From assembly GCA_902782225.1 (NCBI GenBank), contig CACZMF010000014.1, positions 53,535 through 117,534 on the forward strand: 64,000 nt of DNA, given 5' to 3'. Both the position numbers and the translations under genes were made by a program. Every line of letters starts with the position of its first letter. Position 1 is the stretch's first letter. The DNA comes from an uncultured Bacteroidia bacterium (GTDB lineage Bacteria > Bacteroidota > Bacteroidia > Bacteroidales > UBA932). Positions 14,935 through 22,748 of this stretch are shown piece after piece. The notes beneath the pieces are model-generated. The model did not search any database, was not told the origin of the DNA, and saw only the letters and a list, made by a program, of their open reading frames with translations.

Positions 14935-15006
14935 GGCCTCATAGTTCAACGGATAGAACGGAAGTTTCCTAAACTTTAAATCGAGGTTCGATTCCTCGTG
15001 GGGCTA
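14935..15006 (+). tRNA. tRNA-Arg (anticodon CCU)
   Basis: The 72-nt cloverleaf has acceptor GGCCTCA/TGGGGCT, D stem GTTC/GAAC, anticodon stem GAAGT/ACTTT with loop TTCCTAA (CCT at 14968-14970) and T arm CGAGG-TTCGATT-CCTCG. CCA is not encoded. The 3' end is the insertion site of the adjacent element: the integrase gene on the other strand runs into it and takes its TAG stop from the complement of 14969-14971, inside the anticodon loop. Confidence 0.92.
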
Positions 15007-16551
15007 CCCAAGCGGACTTTCCTGAAAATTCAGGGGAGTCCGTTTCTGTTTGCCCTTGTAACAGGTTGATATTTTCATATATACATCCTAGGATAGAGTT
15101 GACGGAATTGGTTCGATAAAACTTCCCGTCAAATACGATTTCTTGTGAAAAAATCGAACCAAGTAAGCGAACCTTAGTTTCTGTGCTGGCGGTGGAGAAG
15201 AATCGAGGGAGGTTCTCAACTATGTTAATACCATAGTTAAGTTTATCATTAATGTCCAGTTCTTCGCAGGTCCGCAGCACCTTGATTCTCTGAGATAGGT
15301 CTTTCAACGTATCATTGTATCTACAAAGCTGTTCTTCTCGGTCTTCCTTGCTGATTTCACCATCAAAGTAAAGGTCATTGACCTTATCCTTCCGTTCTTG
15401 AATTCTCTCGGCTTCCTTCTGCAATTTGTCGACTTCTTGTCGGTTGTTTTGCTTCACAACGCCACAGGCATCATCGAGTATAGAACGGTATAGCTCAATA
15501 GCAGCGCCACGTGGAATAAGCCCGGATATGAATTCCACAAACATAACATTTGCCTTTTCTGCTCTTATGTTGAGGTGCTTGTGGTCGTGATTACAACAAT
15601 AGTAATTGTACTGACCACCGTTCCCTCTTGAGGTGGCGCCTGTTATCCTGTGTCCACATACCGGGCAAACCAAGTACTTGCGAAGGTAAAGGTTAGGATT
15701 AATGGCTTTGTCTAACTTTACTTTTCTTTTTTTTTACCGCTCATAATACGTTGAACGGCCATGAATGTCTCGTTGTCAATAATAGGCTCGTGTCTGCCTA
15801 TTACTTCACAGGCAGGGTAATCCATAAATGCTGGAACTTGTACGTAACCTAGGTAAAAGCGGTTTTTTAACATTTTGAAAAAACTACTTTTTGATGCTTT
15901 GGGCAATAGTCTCCTTCTAATGGATGCCGGTTCTTCCACTCCTTCCGCTACCTCCCGAAATATCTGCTGTATTATTGGCGCGGTCTTATGGTCTATTGCC
16001 AAATAATGGTCAGTTCCGGTTTTTTCATCAGCCTTAATGTTAATATAGCCACGTGGAGCTTTGCCACACCATTCACCACGCATCAAATGCTCGTGTATTC
16101 CCTCTCTGGTCCTGCGAGCAATTTTAGCATCTTCGGTGTGCGCTACGCCGCAACGTATTGCGAGCCACGTGGACCAGTCAGTGGCTTTGAAGTCTATTGC
16201 CTCCTCAACCGCATTGATTTCAACGCCCATTTCATCATAGAATAAACGTTTATATGTAAAGGCAAATTCTACGTTACGTGAGTACCTGTCCCAGCGTAGG
16301 AAGAGAATAAGGTCAACCTTTCCTCGGTTCTTCTTACAATACTCGTAAATACGTTTGATTTCAGGTCGTCTCATATCGTAGTCTTTGGCTGAATAGTCTT
16401 CCTTATACGGTTGCTCGTCCCCGATTATTTCATAGCCGCGATTCTGGCAGTAGAGGCGGAGGCTTCTTTCCTGCGCCTCAATACTTAGACGTTCTTTTTG
16501 TTCGTCACTGGATACTCTGGTGTAGAGTATCACTCTTTTCTTGTGGTCCAT
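14969..16551 (-). CDS. Large serine recombinase (integrase), split by a -1 frame break
   Basis: The N-terminal frame (16551 to 15718) begins MDHKKRVILYTRVSSDEQ with the catalytic Ser near residue 14, then the resolvase core (DLILFLRWDRYSRN) and a Recombinase domain (GKAPRGY...). It stops shortly after MSGKKKEK. The C-terminal frame continues with a zinc ribbon (CPVCGHR...CC) and a long coiled coil. The frames join exactly if A9 (complement of 15727-15735) is read with a -1 shift, giving about 525 residues, normal for the family. The C-terminus is encoded by the tRNA-Arg antisense strand. Alternatives are programmed frameshifting, a real inactivating indel or a homopolymer sequencing error. 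I chose ATG 16551; upstream in-frame codons lack conservation. Confidence 0.85.
15001..15016. repeat. Candidate attL (GGGCTACCC core plus AAGCGGA)
   Basis: GGGCTACCC covers the last six bases of tRNA-Arg and three beyond it, followed directly by AAGCGGA. The same two blocks recur at 22302-22323 with a 6-bp insertion between them. This fits an attachment-site duplication by the adjacent recombinase. Confidence 0.6.
15012..15047 (+). terminator. Terminator-like hairpin after tRNA-Arg
   Basis: CGGACT plus TCCTGAA pair with TTCAGG plus AGTCCG, followed by TTTCTGTTT. It can end tRNA-Arg transcription and lies within the 3' coding end of the integrase on the other strand. Confidence 0.65.
15727..15735 (-). 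other. A9 slippery run at the integrase frame break
   Basis: On the coding (minus) strand the sequence is GGT, nine A, then GAAAAGTAA. Reading on in frame 0 reaches TAA after three more codons. A -1 slip anywhere in the A run gives an open frame into the zinc ribbon. A AAA AAG-type runs are known sites of -1 ribosomal slippage in mobile elements. Confidence 0.75.
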
Positions 16552-16705
16552 TAAATATAGTATTATTGATTTTATTATTATTGGCTTCTTCGATTTGAAG
16601 ATAGGCCCATTTTTCAAGAAAGGTCTTGAGTTGTTGAAGTTCTTCATCGTCCAAGGTTAAGCCGTGTTTAGTAATGATGGCTCTACATCGTGATAATGAT
16701 ATCAT
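16505..16705 (-). CDS. Small helical protein overlapping the integrase start
   Basis: This 66-residue ORF begins MISLSRCRAIITKHG and continues LTLDDEELQQLKTFLEKWA, a compact helical pattern with an acidic turn. Similar small ORFs occur directly ahead of serine recombinase genes in Bacteroidetes elements, but I can give no function. It overlaps the integrase start by 47 bases. A perfect palindrome TAATGATATCATTA spans its start codon (16694-16707) and could be an operator. Confidence 0.55.
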   Translation of the reverse strand: MISLSRCRAIITKHGLTLDDEELQQLKTFLEKWAYLQIEEANNNKINNTIFNGPQEKSDTLHQSIQ

Positions 16706-16707
16706 TA
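16694..16707. promoter_or_regulatory. Palindrome at the start of the 66-residue gene
   Basis: TAATGATATCATTA is a perfect 14-bp inverted repeat overlapping the start codon, placed where an autoregulator could bind. No binding protein is evident. Confidence 0.35.
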
Positions 16708-16821
16708 ATAGTTTTGGGGGATTCTCCGCTGTAACGCTGCGGTAGCTTATTAGGGGTTGATACCCTCATCGAGTTCAACTTTATCAAAAATATGCTAAAT
16801 CCCAGAGAAAAACAAATAATA

Positions 16822-17460
16822 TCATAAATCAAATGTTTTTTTTATCCTCTGGACCGTAGAAACCCCCACCTTGCAAATCTTGGAGGTGTCCCTGATGCTG
16901 CACCCCTTCTTCAGATATTTTATTATGTCGGTGTGCTTCTCTGCTTTTCGTTCTTTGGTTTCTACGGAACCCGGCTTACGCCCCATCTTCACACCTCTGG
17001 CTTTGGCTTGCTCACGACCACTGTTAAGCCTGAATTTGATACTCTCCAGTTCAAGTGAATTTGCGAGGCTCAGGCAGGAAAGAAGGACGGGGGCGAATAT
17101 TGAAGGCTTACCGTCAGCATCTAGCAGGGTAAACTGTTCTTTCTGGGCATAAAGGTTTACGTGGGAGTCCATAAGGTCCTTAACAAAGTTCATTGTATCA
17201 AATACGGAGCCCCTGTTGATACGGCTGAGTTCACTTACAGCGAGTACCCCAATACGGTTGTCTTTGCAGTATTGGACACATTCGTTGAGGACTGGGCGGT
17301 TTGTTCCATTCTTTGCGGACAGGTGCTCTTCAAATACCTTTGGAATCTCGTAGCCGTTATATCTACAGTACGCTTCCAAATCCCGCACTTGGCGGCTGGT
17401 ATCCTGTCGGCTTTCTAGACTGCCGGAACTGGAGGTGCGAGCGTATATGACTGCTTTCAT
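16822..17460 (-). CDS. Small serine recombinase (resolvase/invertase type)
   Basis: The 212-residue protein starts MKAVIYARTSSSG with the nucleophile Ser near residue 10. It has the resolvase core motif (ISELSRINRG-like, VLAVSELSRINRGS) and ends in a helix-turn-helix (CSIRDTSKICKVGVSTVQRIKKTF), the layout of resolvases and invertases rather than large integrases. ATG 17460 was chosen because the 12 residues upstream are not conserved. In this element it probably resolves multimers or inverts DNA. It shares the minus strand with the integrase, which lies downstream. Confidence 0.88.
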   Translation of the reverse strand: MKAVIYARTSSSGSLESRQDTSRQVRDLEAYCRYNGYEIPKVFEEHLSAKNGTNRPVLNECVQYCKDNRIGVLAVSELSRINRGSVFDTMNFVKDLMDSHVNLYAQKEQFTLLDADGKPSIFAPVLLSCLSLANSLELESIKFRLNSGREQAKARGVKMGRKPGSVETKERKAEKHTDIIKYLKKGCSIRDTSKICKVGVSTVQRIKKTFDL

Positions 17461-17501
17461 CGTGTTCGGAAATATCTTTGATAAAAATGAATTCATTTAA
17501 T

Positions 17502-17544
17502 GGTCCGTATTCATTGCGGTCATAGATTAATTTGAATACGGACC
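17502..17544. terminator. Hairpin between DUF2693 gene and small recombinase
   Basis: GGTCCGTATTCA pairs perfectly with TGAATACGGACC (12 bp), with a T run on the plus-strand side only. It lies downstream of the minus-strand DUF2693 gene, so it may act as a processing or pausing structure there. Confidence 0.45.
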
Positions 17545-17552
17545 TTTTCTGA

Positions 17553-17897
17553 CTACAGTACACGGACCAAAGATTCATAAGAGAAACAACGGAATGCGTT
17601 GCGGTCAAGGTCCCAGTACGTACAGTTACCGTACACTTCATTGGGAATCCCGTTACCGTTGATTCTGGCTTCAATGAATCCTCCCCGGGGCAGGCATCCG
17701 GTAGCCCTACGAATCATGCCGGTGCTTTTTTTTACAAATTCAAACGTAACGACCTCGCCCTTGGCAAATCTTTTCTTCAATTCTGCCACCATTTCCATTT
17801 TGATTCCAAGGAGGATGGGGTTGATATTGCCATTGGTTTTGGCAACCATAAAGGCTGCTCTCTTGATGTCGGTGTTGGTAAGTGCGATAGCGTTCAT
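17553..17897 (-). CDS. DUF2693-like protein of mobile elements
   Basis: The 114-residue protein contains the pattern VTFEFVKKSTGMIRRATGCLPR with a following YWDLDRNAFRCFSYESLV tail, resembling the small DUF2693 family often carried on Bacteroidetes mobile elements. Its role is unknown. It has a full promoter at 17919-17949 and is divergent from the 79-residue gene at 18003. It lies upstream of the recombinase genes on the same strand. Confidence 0.75.
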   Translation of the reverse strand: MNAIALTNTDIKRAAFMVAKTNGNINPILLGIKMEMVAELKKRFAKGEVVTFEFVKKSTGMIRRATGCLPRGGFIEARINGNGIPNEVYGNCTYWDLDRNAFRCFSYESLVRVL

Positions 17898-17918
17898 TGT
17901 TGTTGTCTTTTGTTAATG

Positions 17919-17949
17919 CAAATATACTGCTAATATTTAATATATGCAA
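17919..17949 (-). promoter_or_regulatory. Promoter of the DUF2693 gene
   Basis: On the minus strand TTG (17949-17947), 20 bp, then TATATTTG (17926-17919) match the Bacteroidetes consensus fully. The transcript starts about 15 bases before the start codon. Confidence 0.8.
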
Positions 17950-17967
17950 GTTTTTATATTGCTTATT

Positions 17968-17997
17968 TTGAATATCAGCCACTTTTATTTATATTTG
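17968..17997 (+). promoter_or_regulatory. Divergent promoter of the 79-residue gene
   Basis: TTG (17968-17970), 19 bp, then TATATTTG (17990-17997). The expected transcription start coincides with the ATG at 18003, so the mRNA may be leaderless or nearly so. Confidence 0.75.
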
Positions 17998-18002
17998 CTG
18001 TT

Positions 18003-18242
18003 ATGCAGGATAAAAACAAGCAGGAAAGGACAGTCGTTCACCTCGAGAAGGATGGACGGCATTACTATTATGGAAATTTGAAAGCGTTGACGGACCATTG
18101 GGGCAAAGACTCCATCGGCGTGTCACATTCATATCTTAAGAACCTCAACATTTCGGAGGAGCATCCTTTTATTAATTCAAAGTGCATAATACGTCGTGGG
18201 GTCATAGTAACCTCGCCACGAATAATAAAAGACAAGGGTTAG
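18003..18242 (+). CDS. Small protein of mobile elements, function unknown
   Basis: This 79-residue protein begins MQDKNKQERTVVHLEKDGRHYYYGNL and contains SKCIIRRGVIVTSPR near the end. There is no signal peptide or membrane helix. The pattern (a short beta hairpin, a helix with a middle SHSYLKNL, and an ending IIRRG) resembles small hypothetical proteins of Bacteroidetes plasmids and integrative elements. It has its own strong promoter and is divergent from the DUF2693 gene. Confidence 0.7.
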   Translation: MQDKNKQERTVVHLEKDGRHYYYGNLKALTDHWGKDSIGVSHSYLKNLNISEEHPFINSKCIIRRGVIVTSPRIIKDKG

Positions 18243-18269
18243 TGGTTTTCTAAGAAATCACTATATTTG
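18239..18269 (+). promoter_or_regulatory. Probable promoter ahead of the microprotein and LRR lipoprotein
   Basis: TATATTTG (18262-18269) is an exact -7 box; 20 bp upstream is TTA rather than TTG. The putative transcript opens with a very stable hairpin, GCTGC-TTCG-GCAGC at 18274-18287. Confidence 0.5.
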
Positions 18270-18566
18270 TAACGCTGCTTCGGCAGCAGACATACAGCGA
18301 AAGTGTTTTCGTAGGTCCTTTTACAGAAATGTGGAAGTTTCAAAGACAGAAGGATTACGGATGTACTTGCCGCTCGTGCATTGGTTATGTTGTAACCCCA
18401 GTTTCTCTGGGCTGTACTCCATATCAAGCCGAGTGTGGAGTATTATCAGTAGTTTATCTCTGTCAAGGTCTTCCACAACCTCTGTAAGGATAGATGAAAG
18501 AGGCTCCACACTTTTGTTTTTTAGTGCCGGGTATAGGGAGCCGTGCCCGATGTACAATAATAAAGA
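18243..18566. other. Long leader or intergenic stretch, no convincing gene
   Basis: This roughly 320-base stretch holds the promoter-like box and UUCG-loop hairpin. Open frames of 60-90 codons exist on both strands here, but none has a recognisable start context or domain. The simplest reading is a long 5' leader for the microprotein and LRR lipoprotein genes. Confidence 0.4.
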
Positions 18567-18716
18567 ATGGAGTCAAACAGCATTTCCAATCTCGCGGTGA
18601 TAATCCCCAACGACGCTCATTATCTTGCACCGGAGAGCACAATCATTACTCTTCGCCAATCCCATCCGCTAATGCTATCACAGAATGAGCAAACCACGGA
18701 AGAGGACCTGTTCTAA
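18567..18716 (+). CDS. 49-residue microprotein upstream of the LRR lipoprotein
   Basis: This small ORF starts MESNSISNLAVIIPN and ends EEDLF, with no signal or membrane segment. Its middle matches the microprotein at 7596-7727 without gaps (YLAP, six residues, LR, seven residues, S, then TTE), and it too sits 12 bases upstream of a fimbrillin-like lipoprotein gene. Recurrence of motif and position in both chromosomal and element DNA supports a real gene. Function is unknown. Confidence 0.6.
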   Translation: MESNSISNLAVIIPNDAHYLAPESTIITLRQSHPLMLSQNEQTTEEDLF

Positions 18717-18728
18717 ACGGAAAGCCTT

Positions 18729-20429
18729 ATGAGAAGAAACATTTTAATTCTAAACGCGGCACTGGCCGCTTTCGCGGCATTGTCTTCCTGCCAGACAAAT
18801 GTGGTGGTGGAATCTCCCCTTATGGAGGCTCCTGAAATAGTGGCATCTTTGGAAACCGGCATTGGGTCCAAATCAATGATATCCGTTGACGGTGAAGGAG
18901 TAGGGACGATATACTGGACCCCTTCGGACGATATAAATGTTTTCTACGGCACGACCAGCACAAAATATACTTCAAGAAATACGGAGAACGCACTTACGGC
19001 GGTTTTCCGTACAAACGATATCATCGGCAGCACAGAGAGCGCATCCGATAACATCTGGGGGCTTTATCCATATGACGATGATGCGGTGTGCGACGGAACA
19101 GCTGTGACTACAACCATCCCTTCGACCCAGTACGGTGTTCCGGACACCTTTGATGATGACCTGTTCCCGACACTGGCTCACTCGGAAACCAACGCCTTGA
19201 AGTTCTACAATGTATGCGGGGGCATAAAGTTCAGCCTGTCCCGGGATGATATCACGGAGATAACATTCAGGGGCAATAACTCGGAGGATTTGGCTGGCAG
19301 CGTGAGCCTCACATTCACAAATAACCTTCCTGCCGCATCGGTAGTGTCCGGTGAGAAAGAAATAACTTTGCTTCCTAAGACTGGTCCCACGTTTGCTGCT
19401 AGCACCAACTATTACCTTGTTCTTCTCCCCGGCATGTTGAACAATGGCTTCACAATGACATTCTTGACATCGGACGGAAGCACAGGTACTTTCAACTACA
19501 CCGCCTCCGCAGTCACAATCAAACGTTCCGTATTCAGCCGCAAAGCCAATATAGACAGTTTCGCAACATTTGTCGCTCCGGTTGTAAATATCCAGTTTGA
19601 AGATGCCAACTTCAAAGCCTACTGTGTTACGAATTTCGACACTGATGGGGATGGAGAAGTATCTTTTGAAGAAGGTTTATCGGTGACGAGTGTTGATGTA
19701 AATACAGTCAATATATCATCATTGGGGGGTGTTGAACATTTTACAAATCTTAGAATTCTGCGTTGTAGAGGAACAAGCGTTACTAATACTGGACCTAATG
19801 GACAACTAGAGTATTTGGATGTCAGTAACAATACCGCTCTATCTGAATTGGATTGTTCGTGCAACAACCTCGCAACTCTTGATTTAAGCAACAATTCTGC
19901 ATTGTCCATATTGAAATGCAGTTGCAACCTGCTTACAGGTATTGATTTACATAGTAATATAGCTCTGACCATATTGAGTTGTTATAGCAATAAAATCTCT
20001 TATTTAGATGTGAGTGATTTATCATTTTTGGAAGAATTGGTGTGCGCAGGAACCAGTACGGATAATACAACACAATTATCATCACTAAATATAAGTGGCT
20101 GTACAAAGTTGAAGGTCCTGTCTATATGGAACAGAAGTTATGGACTCACATCCCTTGACGTAAGTAATAATACTGAATTGATACGGCTGATTTGCGTTGA
20201 TAATCGAATAACATCTTTAGATTTGACAAATAATACGGCACTGGAAACCTTACAGTGCGATGGGTGTAATGAACTCACGACATTGGATGTTAGTAATAAC
20301 ACGGCATTAACATTTTTTGATTGTTACAATTGTCCTAAGCTATCGGAACTATGGCTTAGAACAGGACAGACTTTCAGCATACAGTTTACTTATAATCAGA
20401 ATGTTACAACAGTTTATTACAAAGACTAA
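18729..20429 (+). CDS. Fimbrillin-like lipoprotein with leucine-rich repeats (element cargo)
   Basis: The signal peptide and lipobox ALSSC (Cys about 21) mark a lipoprotein. Residues 35-285 resemble a fimbrillin-type domain (IYWTPSDDINVFYG, TNYYLVLLPG). An EF-hand or dockerin-like loop NFDTDGDGEVSFEEG lies near 300-316. From about 330 to 545 there are roughly 21-residue leucine-rich repeats of the LDVSNNTALxxLxCxxN type. It is AT-richer than the flanking chromosome and is the only clear cargo gene of the element. Surface binding is the likely role; the ligand is unknown. It ends in a bidirectional terminator shared with the rep gene. Confidence 0.85.
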   Translation: MRRNILILNAALAAFAALSSCQTNVVVESPLMEAPEIVASLETGIGSKSMISVDGEGVGTIYWTPSDDINVFYGTTSTKYTSRNTENALTAVFRTNDIIGSTESASDNIWGLYPYDDDAVCDGTAVTTTIPSTQYGVPDTFDDDLFPTLAHSETNALKFYNVCGGIKFSLSRDDITEITFRGNNSEDLAGSVSLTFTNNLPAASVVSGEKEITLLPKTGPTFAASTNYYLVLLPGMLNNGFTMTFLTSDGSTGTFNYTASAVTIKRSVFSRKANIDSFATFVAPVVNIQFEDANFKAYCVTNFDTDGDGEVSFEEGLSVTSVDVNTVNISSLGGVEHFTNLRILRCRGTSVTNTGPNGQLEYLDVSNNTALSELDCSCNNLATLDLSNNSALSILKCSCNLLTGIDLHSNIALTILSCYSNKISYLDVSDLSFLEELVCAGTSTDNTTQLSSLNISGCTKLKVLSIWNRSYGLTSLDVSNNTELIRLICVDNRITSLDLTNNTALETLQCDGCNELTTLDVSNNTALTFFDCYNCPKLSELWLRTGQTFSIQFTYNQNVTTVYYKD

Positions 20430-20534
20430 TCCATAAACGATGTTACTAACAATATATGGGTTGTATATATCTTCATCATTAGGGGATTATCCTAATTGAG
20501 TTTTTAATTGGCTATCATAATATACTGCATTTTT

Positions 20535-20580
20535 GCAGTGGCAGGGGGTATTGTTAATATATCCCCTGTCATTGCATTTT
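20535..20580. terminator. Bidirectional terminator between LRR lipoprotein and rep
   Basis: GCAGTGGCAGGGG (20535-20547) pairs with CCCCTGTCATTGC (20563-20575) through G-U tolerant pairing, with T-rich flanks on both sides. Confidence 0.75.
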
Positions 20581-20587
20581 AAGGATG

Positions 20588-21331
20588 TCAGTCCAGTTGA
20601 TTTTGTGGCGGCCACGTGAGAATCTTATGACCGTAATCTTTAAGCTCCTGATAGTGGAGCCGTACTTCCAGCCTATATAGTTTCTTGGGGTTGCCATAGT
20701 TGTTGAGGATATAATCTTTGTGAGAGTGGTTGAGGATTTCCGCACGCTTGTCATAAGCCTGCACCGTTATTCCTTCTGATTTGTTGTGAATGGCTTTCTT
20801 TTGCTGGATTGTAATCGTTGGATACTTCAAACGGTCCAGAGAGGTTGAATACTCAAAGAATACTCCCTCTAAAACATTTTTGCGGTCCTTTACCGCTTTA
20901 CGGTTAATGATGGTTGTAACGCTCTTGTCCCTCATCATTCGTTTTATGAACGAAGAAATGTTTATGGAACTGTCGCAAGCAAGGTCCACTGCCGTATAGT
21001 TGTTGAGGGTCATACCCAAGGACTCAGGTAAGGTCAATACGTCTTGTAGCCACTCACAGTCATACAAGATACGGTTTTCAATTTTGAAAAAAACAAAGTG
21101 GGTGTCGGCAGTTTCCGTGTACATATCAAATTTCATTTGCGCCACAGGCTCACCGCCCTCAACAATATGGAAGAAGAACTTGTACCGGTCATTGGTAATA
21201 CGGTAGAACCGGTACAGGTCTATGTCAATATAATTCCCTACCTCAACGTTTTTGAAGCTGTTTAGGGCATCATCCTTGGCGGTATAGCAAATTCGCAGTT
21301 CGTCGATAACGATACCATAACTACCAAACAT
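20588..21331 (-). CDS. Rep-like replication initiator, C-terminus frame-shifted
   Basis: The protein starts MFGSYGIVIDELRICYTA and has the conserved core of Bacteroidetes plasmid and phage-type initiators (NNYTAVDLACDSS, YDKRAEILNHSHKDYI, KLYRLEVRL). I read it as a Rep_trans/PF02486-like replication protein, possibly with nicking activity. It ends at 20588 with a non-conserved tail. The end expected of the family, IRFSRGRHKINWTDIL, is encoded in another frame just downstream (to 20569), so a small indel or deletion seems to have altered the C-terminus. The start at 21331 overlaps the upstream 71-residue gene by 11 bases. Confidence 0.72.
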   Translation of the reverse strand: MFGSYGIVIDELRICYTAKDDALNSFKNVEVGNYIDIDLYRFYRITNDRYKFFFHIVEGGEPVAQMKFDMYTETADTHFVFFKIENRILYDCEWLQDVLTLPESLGMTLNNYTAVDLACDSSINISSFIKRMMRDKSVTTIINRKAVKDRKNVLEGVFFEYSTSLDRLKYPTITIQQKKAIHNKSEGITVQAYDKRAEILNHSHKDYILNNYGNPKKLYRLEVRLHYQELKDYGHKILTWPPQNQLD

Positions 21332-21536
21332 CGTTTTCAGGGTTCGACTCAGAGTTATTATCCGATTCAGTATCGGCATCGGCTTTGGGGACTAAGGACC
21401 ACGTTTGCCGGAGGGACTGTGAAATTTTATTGTTCCAGTCTTGGGAGTGTTTGATGTTCTTTGAGAGCATCGTCTGCGAGATTTTCTGCTTGGTCTCGCT
21501 CGGCATCTGCCGCTTGTAATTTGGAATTGTATTCAT
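21321..21536 (-). CDS. Small protein upstream of rep, NUMOD3-like motif
   Basis: The 71-residue protein begins MNTIPNYKRQMPSETKQKISQTM and repeats a similar block (NNKISQSLRQTW). The SETKQKIS pattern resembles the NUMOD3 DNA-binding motif seen in homing nucleases and some plasmid proteins. It ends in an acidic Asn/Glu-rich tail. It overlaps the rep start and is probably co-translated with it; a role in rep control or origin binding is inference. Confidence 0.6.
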   Translation of the reverse strand: MNTIPNYKRQMPSETKQKISQTMLSKNIKHSQDWNNKISQSLRQTWSLVPKADADTESDNNSESNPENDVW

Positions 21537-21826
21537 AGTATTATCTTTTTGTCATAAATAGTCCAGTAGGGATAAAAAGGATAGTAAGTTGTGTTGGTCA
21601 TTAGCTGATAGAGGTAGAAATTATCACGACCAACAATATTTTCGCATTTTTTCAGAGCAATTATTTCTCGCTAAACTGTTATAACCTACTAAGCCTATAC
21701 CGTCTTGTAAGCCTTTCTTCGGCAGTGTACATAAAAGCCAGAGATAGAACCGGAGTCGGAAACAGGGCCATGAATCCTTGCCAAAAAGGGGTGGAAGAAA
21801 AAGTTTGAAAAGTTTTCGGACAGGTC

Positions 21827-21856
21827 TTGGAGGTATCGAAAAAATGCGTACATTTG
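21827..21856 (+). promoter_or_regulatory. Promoter of the leader peptide and 45-residue gene
   Basis: TTG (21827-21829), 19 bp, then TACATTTG (21849-21856). The expected start is near 21863, exactly where the first arm of the long inverted repeat begins. Confidence 0.7.
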
Positions 21857-21863
21857 CAGAAGT

Positions 21864-22000
21864 CATTTATGTTATGCCATCATTGGTGGGATAAATGAAA
21901 CGGACTCCTATCCTCTATATGGACGTCCGTTTTTTTAGACCCGTAAACTGAGGGGAGGTGAGGTCCGGCGTTCTTACACCTACCAATGATAACATAAATG
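21864..22000 (+). promoter_or_regulatory. Candidate leader-peptide attenuator
   Basis: Arm 1 (21864-21890) contains an ATG opening the nine-codon frame MLCHHWWDK (21869-21898). Arm 2 (21979-22000) is its near-complementary partner, and its last three bases are the start codon of the 45-residue gene. Between them lies a hairpin ACGGAC/GTCCGT followed by eight T (21898-21937). Pairing of the arms would hide the downstream start, and ribosomes on the leader peptide would free it. The hairpin plus T run could add transcriptional attenuation. Function is inferred from layout only. Confidence 0.5.
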
Positions 22001-22135
22001 AAAAGAAGAACGCGACCAGCAATTGTTCGCATCTCCATTGGGGTGGAGTTAGCGAAGCTTGTCAAGGTAAAGGCGCATAAGCGCCATTATAATGACAAAA
22101 CCGTGAAGGTTCGTGGTTACTACCGCAGGTATTAG
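21998..22135 (+). CDS. 45-residue highly basic protein
   Basis: The ORF reads MKRRTRPAIVRISIGVELAK and ends RGYYRRY. About one third of residues are Lys or Arg, and a short hydrophobic beta segment lies in the middle. It could bind nucleic acid. The start codon lies in arm 2 of the upstream inverted repeat, and a promoter precedes the block. No family is recognised. Confidence 0.5.
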   Translation: MKRRTRPAIVRISIGVELAKLVKVKAHKRHYNDKTVKVRGYYRRY

Positions 22136-22301
22136 AGGTGCCTGATGTAGCAAAGACTTGAACTGTACCGCAAGGTACTCTACTCTATCCCCTCAGTTTT
22201 TTATTTCCAAGTGGAAGGGTCATTGGGGTCAGGAATCCAGAACCTCAACGCCCACAGGGCATCCAAGTCTTCAAGGAATTGGTTTGATAATAGTCCGTTC
22301 A

Positions 22302-22323
22302 GGGCTACCCCTTAAAAAGCGGA
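22302..22323. repeat. Candidate attR (GGGCTACCC ... AAGCGGA)
   Basis: GGGCTACCC (22302-22310) and AAGCGGA (22317-22323) repeat the sequence at the tRNA-Arg end (15001-15016). Sequence to the right returns to the chromosomal gene style. Confidence 0.55.
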
Positions 22324-22343
22324 TTAAAAGTCCGCTTTTTTTT
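22316..22343 (+). terminator. Rho-independent terminator at the right element boundary
   Basis: AAAGCGGA and TCCGCTTT pair around ATTAAAAG-like loop sequence, followed by a T run. It may be the original terminator of tRNA-Arg before insertion. Confidence 0.7.
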
Positions 22344-22475
22344 GTGTCTTTTTCAGGCATGCTATACATTGTTTGACTCATGTTGTACCCGAGAAATAAT
22401 AAGCGATGTTGGGTATTAATCTGTTTTGGGAAGAAATCGGGGCGAAAAAACGGCAAAACCCCCATATTTATGGGG

Positions 22476-22506
22476 TTGATTCGCGTTGTCAATCTCACGA
22501 ACTTTG
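22476..22506 (+). promoter_or_regulatory. Probable promoter of the LuxR-type gene
   Basis: TTG (22476-22478), 20 bp, then GAACTTTG (22499-22506), one base off the -7 consensus. A short hairpin (CCCCATA/TATGGGG region) lies just before it. Confidence 0.45.
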
Positions 22507-22529
22507 TAATCGTAAAACGAAGTGGAACT

Positions 22530-22748
22530 ATGGACACCGACAATACACACGAAAAAGTGTCCCTTACAAAGAGGGAATTGGATGTCCTGCGGCTCCTTGC
22601 CAAAGGGTACACGTCAACCTGGATCGCCGAGGAGCTGGGCATCGGCCAGAGCACGGTAATGGACCACCGGAAGAAGCTTCACAAGAAGATGAAAGTGAAC
22701 CGGGTCGGCGAGTTGGTTTTCAAGGCCACGGAACTTCACCTGATCTGA
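22530..22748 (+). CDS. Stand-alone LuxR-type HTH protein
   Basis: This 72-residue protein is almost only a GerE/LuxR helix-turn-helix: LTKRELDVLRLLAKGYTSTWIAEELGIGQSTVMDHRKKLHKKM. It has no receiver or sensor domain. I chose ATG 22530 because the open frame upstream carries no domain and a promoter-like motif ends just before it. It resembles the C-terminal HTH of the TPR regulator at 24876-26078, and the exported-protein genes lie between the two. It probably acts as a transcription factor for this locus. Confidence 0.8.
   Translation: MDTDNTHEKVSLTKRELDVLRLLAKGYTSTWIAEELGIGQSTVMDHRKKLHKKMKVNRVGELVFKATELHLI

Follow-up and report, generated by a model that had tools for sequence, protein, structure and literature searches.

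Described RNA-controlled loci

The leader-controlled genes tetQ and erm carry a leader region with alternative pairing. A similar leader region was found upstream of a gene for a basic 45-residue protein in an uncultured Bacteroidia bacterium, but no leader peptide is conserved there, and the leader-peptide part of a comparison with tetQ and erm made in a first-pass annotation has therefore been given up. In the IsrK locus of prophage Gifsy-1, one promoter gives a short terminated RNA and a read-through mRNA, of which the former is complementary to the latter (PMC4825925). As far as the cited account goes, the layout is like that proposed for the present cassette, with a short RNA/read-through pair, alternative folds that set translation and a location on a mobile element. 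However, short IsrK activates, pairs with the 3' part of orf45 and leads to AntQ via anrP (PMC4825925), whereas the pairing in the cassette lies over the start codon and only one ORF is present.

The c4 RNA of phages P1 and P7 occludes a ribosome-binding site and is the basis of heteroimmunity, and both c4 and the CI RNA of P4 resemble the RNA predicted for the cassette in being antisense RNAs of mobile elements (PMC12197685, PMC4825925, as far as these accounts reach). Judged by its sequence, the cassette would likewise give an RNA that pairs over the start region downstream in the same transcript. Unlike in the c4 and CI loci, no antirepressor or replication operon follows in the unit; the cassette ends at its terminator T2 after one ORF, and the flanks vary between copies. 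The host phylum is also different, and no processing is known for the cassette.

The type III system ToxIN has promoter, RNA, terminator and protein gene in one unit, and its repeat RNA binds a 171-aa RNase (PMC4147584). The same order of promoter, RNA, terminator and ORF can be read in the cassette, but in place of a repeat RNA it has a non-repeat arm complementary to the start codon of its 45-aa gene. No tandem-repeat RNA and no RNase of about 170 aa were found; the sole direct repeat at 21500-22600 was one 10-nt pair, 103 nt apart. In the type I system hok/sok, antisense pairing covers the translation control of a small protein, and the structured hok mRNA refolds after 3' cleavage (PMC4147584). 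By sequence, the cassette shares a predicted RNA complementary to the small-protein mRNA (own partner best in 38/40 and 50/58 copies), but RNA and ORF have a single promoter, and the product is basic (15 K/R in 45 aa), not a small hydrophobic membrane-spanning toxin. Such a toxin is usual in type I systems but not universal, SymE and RalR being exceptions (PMC4147584). Until a cyanobacterial case was added, according to PMC12390103, no phyla other than Proteobacteria, Firmicutes and Tenericutes were known to have type I systems. The cassette would work like IsrK, c4/CI and the RNA-antitoxin loci, and is best filed under none of them, since the usual type I feature and the defining type III and c4/CI features are missing. 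No earlier description was found in the openly licensed literature searched, and the cassette is apparently an undescribed form of a known style of control.

Anatomy of the cassette and its carrier element

The window is the whole stretch of 64,000 nucleotides that was analysed. The cassette spans 21827-22202 on its + strand, with the following features of the locus.

15001-22310, no strand: integrative element with limits at GGGCTACCC, its right end occupied by the cassette (supported by the L043 and L051 junctions)
20588-21379, - strand: neighbouring rolling-circle-type replication initiator (putative), 263 aa, outside the cassette (Foldseek)
21827-21829 and 21849-21856, + strand: promoter, TTG, 19-nt spacer and TACATTTG; Bacteroidota type
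21862-21936, + strand: predicted short RNA of about 75 nt (arm 1, T1 hairpin and T-run), placed from promoter spacing and T-run
21863-21890, + strand: arm 1 (5' strand of P1), predicted to lie at the 5' terminus of the transcript
21868-21897, + strand: nine-codon ORF MLCHHWWDK (ATG TTA TGC CAT CAT TGG TGG GAT AAA TGA), not conserved
21898-21936, + strand: T1, terminator-like hairpin with seven T
21945-21957, + strand: P3 5' strand, G-rich, AAACTGAGGGGAG (repeat search)
21968-21975, + strand: P4 5' strand, GCGTTCTT
21979-22001 (to 22006 as an inverted repeat of arm 1), + strand: arm 2, the 3' strand of P1, covering the AUG at 21998
21998-22135, + strand: gene for the basic 45-residue protein (ORF, relatives, dN/dS)
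22006-22013, + strand: P4 3' strand, AAGAACGC, inside codons 3-6
22187-22202, + strand: P3 3' strand, C-rich, and T-run (T2), ATCCCCTCAGTTTTTT (repeat search)

A promoter upstream of a nine-codon ORF in one arm and a second arm over the start of the 45-residue gene had been described in the first-pass annotation, and both are present, the 3' arm of P1 covering the AUG. The promoter, with its -33-like TTG, is of the Bacteroidota type. TAnnTTTG was found within 260 nt upstream in 76/79 rows, duplicates counted, and TTG lay 16-23 nt 5' of it in 53/58 distinct copies, all preselected for having TAnnTTTG. The inverted repeat formed by the arms (21863-21890 and 21979-22006) is 75% complementary with a perfect 13-bp core (21863-21875 and 21989-22001), and the P1 helix is interrupted by five bulged nucleotides in the 5' arm. 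The hairpin noted earlier between the arms was recovered with strands AAACGGAC.../...GTCCGTTT at 21898-21932, but with seven T (21930-21936) and not eight. A T1 hairpin of -12 kcal/mol or lower, with at least four T in the next 8 nt, was seen in 49/58 distinct copies versus 0/174 shuffled regions. A simple consensus scan, which covers promoters of the sigma-70 type only and hairpin loops of up to 8 nt, listed neither the promoter nor T1, whose predicted loop is larger. A second inverted repeat, AAACTGAGGGGA/TCCCCTCAGTTT, flanks the ORF with 231 nt between its arms; since it spans the ORF, the stem partner of T2 lies far upstream. The folding energy of 21855-22140 was -95.7 kcal/mol, compared with -74.0 (sd 4.8) for 200 dinucleotide shuffles (z = -4.5, none equal), and RNAalifold recovered T1 and the base of P1 without guidance. 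It is conservation that lifts the anatomy above chance, as TAnnTTTG recurs together with complementary arms of unrelated sequence. The T1 loop, in the window (21909-21920) and in relatives (CCCTAA, CCTCTA, CCCCAA), resembles the P3 3' strand; a possible further switch would be its pairing with GAGGGGAG.

The window protein of 45 aa contains 15 K/R, one D and one E. Pooled dN/dS was 0.27 over 279 pairs and 0.32 over 70 close pairs; the 279 were taken from 741 pairs of 39 distinct 45-codon ORFs with the first eight codons excluded, 455 pairs being saturated. By this measure the ORF is under purifying selection. The predicted fold is a helix (7-21) followed by a beta hairpin (22-31/34-43), with a mean pLDDT of 74. 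The protein had no match in Pfam and NCBIfam at E 0.1, one marginal PHROG match (phrog_809, E 0.099, 11 residues), a best E of 0.42 in a PDB profile search and a best E of 0.92 in a PDB fold search with the model. Pfam, NCBIfam and the PDB gave no convincing match, and assignment to a known protein family was rejected. The charge suggests a nucleic-acid-binding role.

The carrier element, about 7.3 kb long, runs from GGGCTACCC at the 3' end of a tRNA (15001) to the second copy at 22302-22310. Taken by itself, the 9-nt repeat GGGCTACCC does not stand out from other short repeats; the boundaries are supported by the junction sequences of L043 and L051. The element looks decayed, as its large serine recombinase is split in two ORFs. 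In the integrated state (14969-16647) the recombinase reads into the tRNA, and at the L051 junction its frame continues across the attachment site and enters a conserved tail (..LSNKFLKDLDRLWAMRPWIPDPTDPTTWK; compare 22200-22310 of the window). The C-terminus of the recombinase seems to differ between the integrated and joined forms. The element apparently carries a 566-aa leucine-rich-repeat protein (18729-20429) as cargo. The neighbouring 263-aa protein resembles rolling-circle initiators, its top three Foldseek hits being the RCR initiators 4cij/4cwe at E 1.3e-4 to 7.7e-4 with a model of mean pLDDT 56; no Pfam match was obtained at E 10. The neighbour in L054 is a different protein with a Phage_CRI match at E 1.9e-4. 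About 270 nt upstream of the cassette in L061, L062 and L034 (G029b) lies a AAGGTGATACA..TGTATCACCTT-like hairpin, common to copies with a convergent Rep-like gene and possibly a rolling-circle origin.

Relatives of the cassette and pairing of its arms

The cassette, about 385 bp long, is dispersed in gut and rumen Bacteroidales, and the relatives appear to derive from metagenome assemblies. A protein search gave matches at 24 places in 13/101 genomes around the window's genome. At least 55 loci were obtained by a peptide-pattern scan of one genome per species (84,980 species), a lower bound since the pattern demands nine set residues; 53 carried the title Bacteroidales bacterium or Bacteroidia bacterium, and the other two were entered under Candidatus Coprenecus, a genus of the Bacteroidales. 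In a sample of 393 genomes of the order, with the window's among them, clear protein matches were found in two, both of the window's genus, and marginal ones (E 4e-4 to 7e-4) in three more, outside the genus. A covariance model built on the 5' part of the cassette from 23 sequences matched 65/300 genomes of the window's genus with 88 matches, some of them fragments. In the 75 matches that were read, the ORF was full in 51, partial in 10 (of these, L146 and L157 seem complete on visual reading, and a contig end truncates L132 and L176) and absent in 14; on these numbers, a steering of other genes by ORF-less RNA copies was rejected. In L161 and L163, whose ORF is missing or broken, the 5' part of the cassette stands ahead of other genes, as if an RNA leader had been captured. 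The ORF is disrupted in L138, L151 and L159, which kept T2, and in G000c5a and G000c5b, which lost it. Phage and plasmid records searched by DNA gave no match. In viral contigs the peptide pattern had 27 fits, one of which passed, L104, weakly via a C-terminal motif and with the layout absent by eye. At the gathering score, Rfam found only two tRNAs within the window, and its sub-threshold hits over 21700-22350 did not cover the arms; no known RNA family was matched.

The layout is common to the copies, typically in the order promoter, arm 1, T1, arm 2 over the start codon, ORF of about 45 aa and T2. BLAST homology, with limits drawn from at least the pairs listed, ended in many pairs near -180 and +205 relative to the ORF start, corresponding to promoter and T2; it began near -106, at T1, where the arms differ, and other pairs share longer flanks. 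Near-identical copies were found in unrelated flanks (L065/L066, 421 bp, 96.9%; L085/L087, 521 bp, 96.9%; L072/L075, 370 bp, 96.8%), which shows that the cassette has been dispersed, alone or with its carrier. The contexts vary and include serine recombinases, a tyrosine-type recombinase, Rep genes and ordinary-looking genes, several of them named by eye. The 3' boundary of L085-L087 resembles an attachment end of integrative elements.

For the P1 test, each side was a stretch of 44 nt, the one for arm 1 following TAnnTTTG and the one for arm 2 following the P4 5' strand. From 80 rows, L104, L060, G024, G027b, L050 and L073 were excluded beforehand and seven were unparsed (G032a, G049b, G027c, L088, L094, L096, L100), leaving 67 rows, 40 with distinct arms. 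Covariation of the arms in relatives had been named as a check in the first-pass annotation, and it was borne out: the best partner of arm 1 was its own arm 2 in 38/40 distinct copies, with duplex energies of -23.9 kcal/mol (sd 3.0) for cognate and -9.2 (sd 3.4) for non-cognate arms. In an enlarged set of 117 parsed units, 58 of them distinct, the own partner was best in 50/58 (-23.4 vs -9.4), and three of the eight exceptions (L163, L165, L174) had no ORF. The count was only 30/45 when wider search windows were used and 41/69 when duplicates were retained. Alignments of P1 allowing only Watson-Crick pairs scored 14.2 for cognate and 6.8 for swapped partners (swapped maximum 13.0). P1 mismatches were G:T in 24 cases and A:C in 12, a modest leaning towards RNA of the + strand.

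Between copies with ORFs 65-80% identical, identity was 0.59-0.62 for arm 1 (shuffled arms 0.58, sd 0.06), 0.63-0.66 for arm 2 and 0.74-0.78 for the inter-arm stretch, values that rest on non-independent pairs. Co-resident copies with differing arms were found in three genomes, and their cross-pairing was no stronger than that of unrelated copies. For G029a, b and c, own pairing was -22.3 to -25.0 and crossed pairing -4.7 to -10.7; in G000 and G019, crossed pairing was -5.6 to -13.1. Co-residents with the same arms do cross-pair (the window copy with G000c5b, and G019a with G019b). The arms diverge fast yet jointly, as differing cassettes with private specificity codes would produce; compensated drift could also be the source. 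In ten copies, some closely related, no second complement of arm 1 above the shuffled maximum was found within the element, and an action of arm 1 on Rep or another element gene was accordingly rejected.

Two further duplexes are alternatives to P1. The strands of P4 are GUUCUU, immediately 5' of arm 2, and its complement AAGAAC, which lies in codons 3-5. There is hardly any variation in the P4 core, which explains the weak whole-duplex statistics (own partner first in only 4/40). The pair flanking the GTTC/GAAC core was Watson-Crick in 47/49 copies (T-A 31, A-T 15, C-G 1), compared with a mean of 25.9 and a maximum of 41 in 10,000 shuffles, and its 3' base is the third base of a Thr codon. 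The P3 duplex was present in most of 40 copies, with variation in step in several (L070, L090, L095, L101, window); among these 40, no such duplex was seen in G000c5a, G042 and L081. P3 is nearly invariant, and the cognate partner ranked in the top three for only 11/40. In a subfamily (L097, L098, L101, L103) strands of the CCTTT/AAAGG type take the place of these P4 strands, and no T-run directly follows the P3 3' strand. In nested folding of the full transcript (37 units) P3 usually beat P1, with mean scores of 0.26 for P1 and 0.30 for P4; in the window, the P1 score was 0.04 and the start codon was 88% unpaired. In the short RNA, arm 1 was 57% unpaired on average and 39% in the window.

Proposed mechanism and rival explanations

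The best reading of the locus is translational control of the 45-residue gene by the arms, favoured because promoter, paired arms, terminator-like hairpin and start-codon pairing recur in the relatives. To this extent the attenuation layout proposed at the outset stands; its leader peptide does not. A nine-codon ORF does lie within arm 1, but an ATG leader of 4-14 codons was found in only 22/58 distinct copies, with differing peptides, and MLCHHWWDK was seen only in copies with the window's arms (window, G027a, G000c5b). The paired His and Trp codons seem to arise incidentally from the sequence of the arm; attenuation through them is so improbable that it was ruled out.

We lean, with moderate confidence, towards a one-promoter antisense cassette in which a short arm 1 RNA silences its own small-protein message. 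The sequences themselves show the pairing with its covariation, the low cross-pairing by computed energy and the conservation of a coding ORF; the short RNA, its action in trans and the translational block are inferred from them. Transcription would start just 5' of arm 1. Many transcripts would end at T1 and give a short RNA of arm 1 and hairpin, and read-through transcripts would carry arm 2 and the ORF. Pairing of the two arms across the start codon (P1) would block translation in cis on the emerging RNA, and the abundant short RNA would probably also block it in trans. When P1 is absent, P4 could form between GUUCUU and codons 3-5 with arm 2 in the loop, and P3 could form between the AACCGAGGGG-type strand and the 3' end, so that the ORF is enclosed in a loop. 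With these alternatives the RNA may take a silent or an open form. Since P3 excludes P1 in nested folding, a lock in cis must be kinetic, acting during transcription, or a pseudoknot, or else the block must occur in trans. This folding result is the main reason why our confidence is not higher.

The same competition of P1 with P3, and the topological crossing of P1 with P4, would suit an RNA switch that acts in cis only. A signal (the basic protein, translation or temperature) would then toggle P1 against P3/P4, T1 would merely lower read-through, and no RNA would act in trans. The basic product might bind its own RNA, and T1 stem and loop look, by eye, more conserved than a bare terminator needs. 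However, the random-like, pair-preserving divergence of the arms and the low cross-pairing of co-residents suggest a private specificity that a helix in cis does not need, although relaxed drift with compensation could also yield such divergence; overall, we consider this switch rather unlikely. Less probable still is a structure that folds as single-stranded DNA, such as a single-strand origin, a transfer origin or a recombination site. A rolling-circle-type Rep adjoins the window cassette, a Rep-like gene lies beside L054, and several copies sit at likely attachment ends. Against this, BLASTP with three of these Rep proteins located relatives next to a small number of copies (8 locus entries, counting duplicates; a distant Rep could escape), and sampled neighbours of other copies look by eye like ordinary genes. 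The cassette also comprises a promoter, T1 and an ORF under selection, and the G:T excess in P1 leans modestly to RNA. The origin or transfer-origin alternative put forward in the first-pass annotation has lost favour for two of these reasons, the unit including a selected protein and copies occurring also away from the kinds of Rep searched for.

If the one-promoter antisense cassette is adopted, two roles of the protein are about equally plausible: addiction, as in RNA-antitoxin loci, or control and self-immunity of a mobile element. A more specific proposal, which we make tentatively and regard as doubtful, is a self-spreading addiction cassette that would combine a type III-like layout, a type I-like antisense code and a 5'-3' mRNA closure reminiscent of hok with a non-membrane, basic, nucleic-acid-binding toxin; its arms would diversify so that each new code addicts alone. 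If the mechanism is true, the cassette would provide an RNA-based control or addiction system for a major gut phylum. The dozens of natural arm pairs, which by computed energy hardly cross-pair, would form a set for studying the evolution of antisense specificity, and a family of small basic proteins, unnamed in the libraries searched, would become directly testable.
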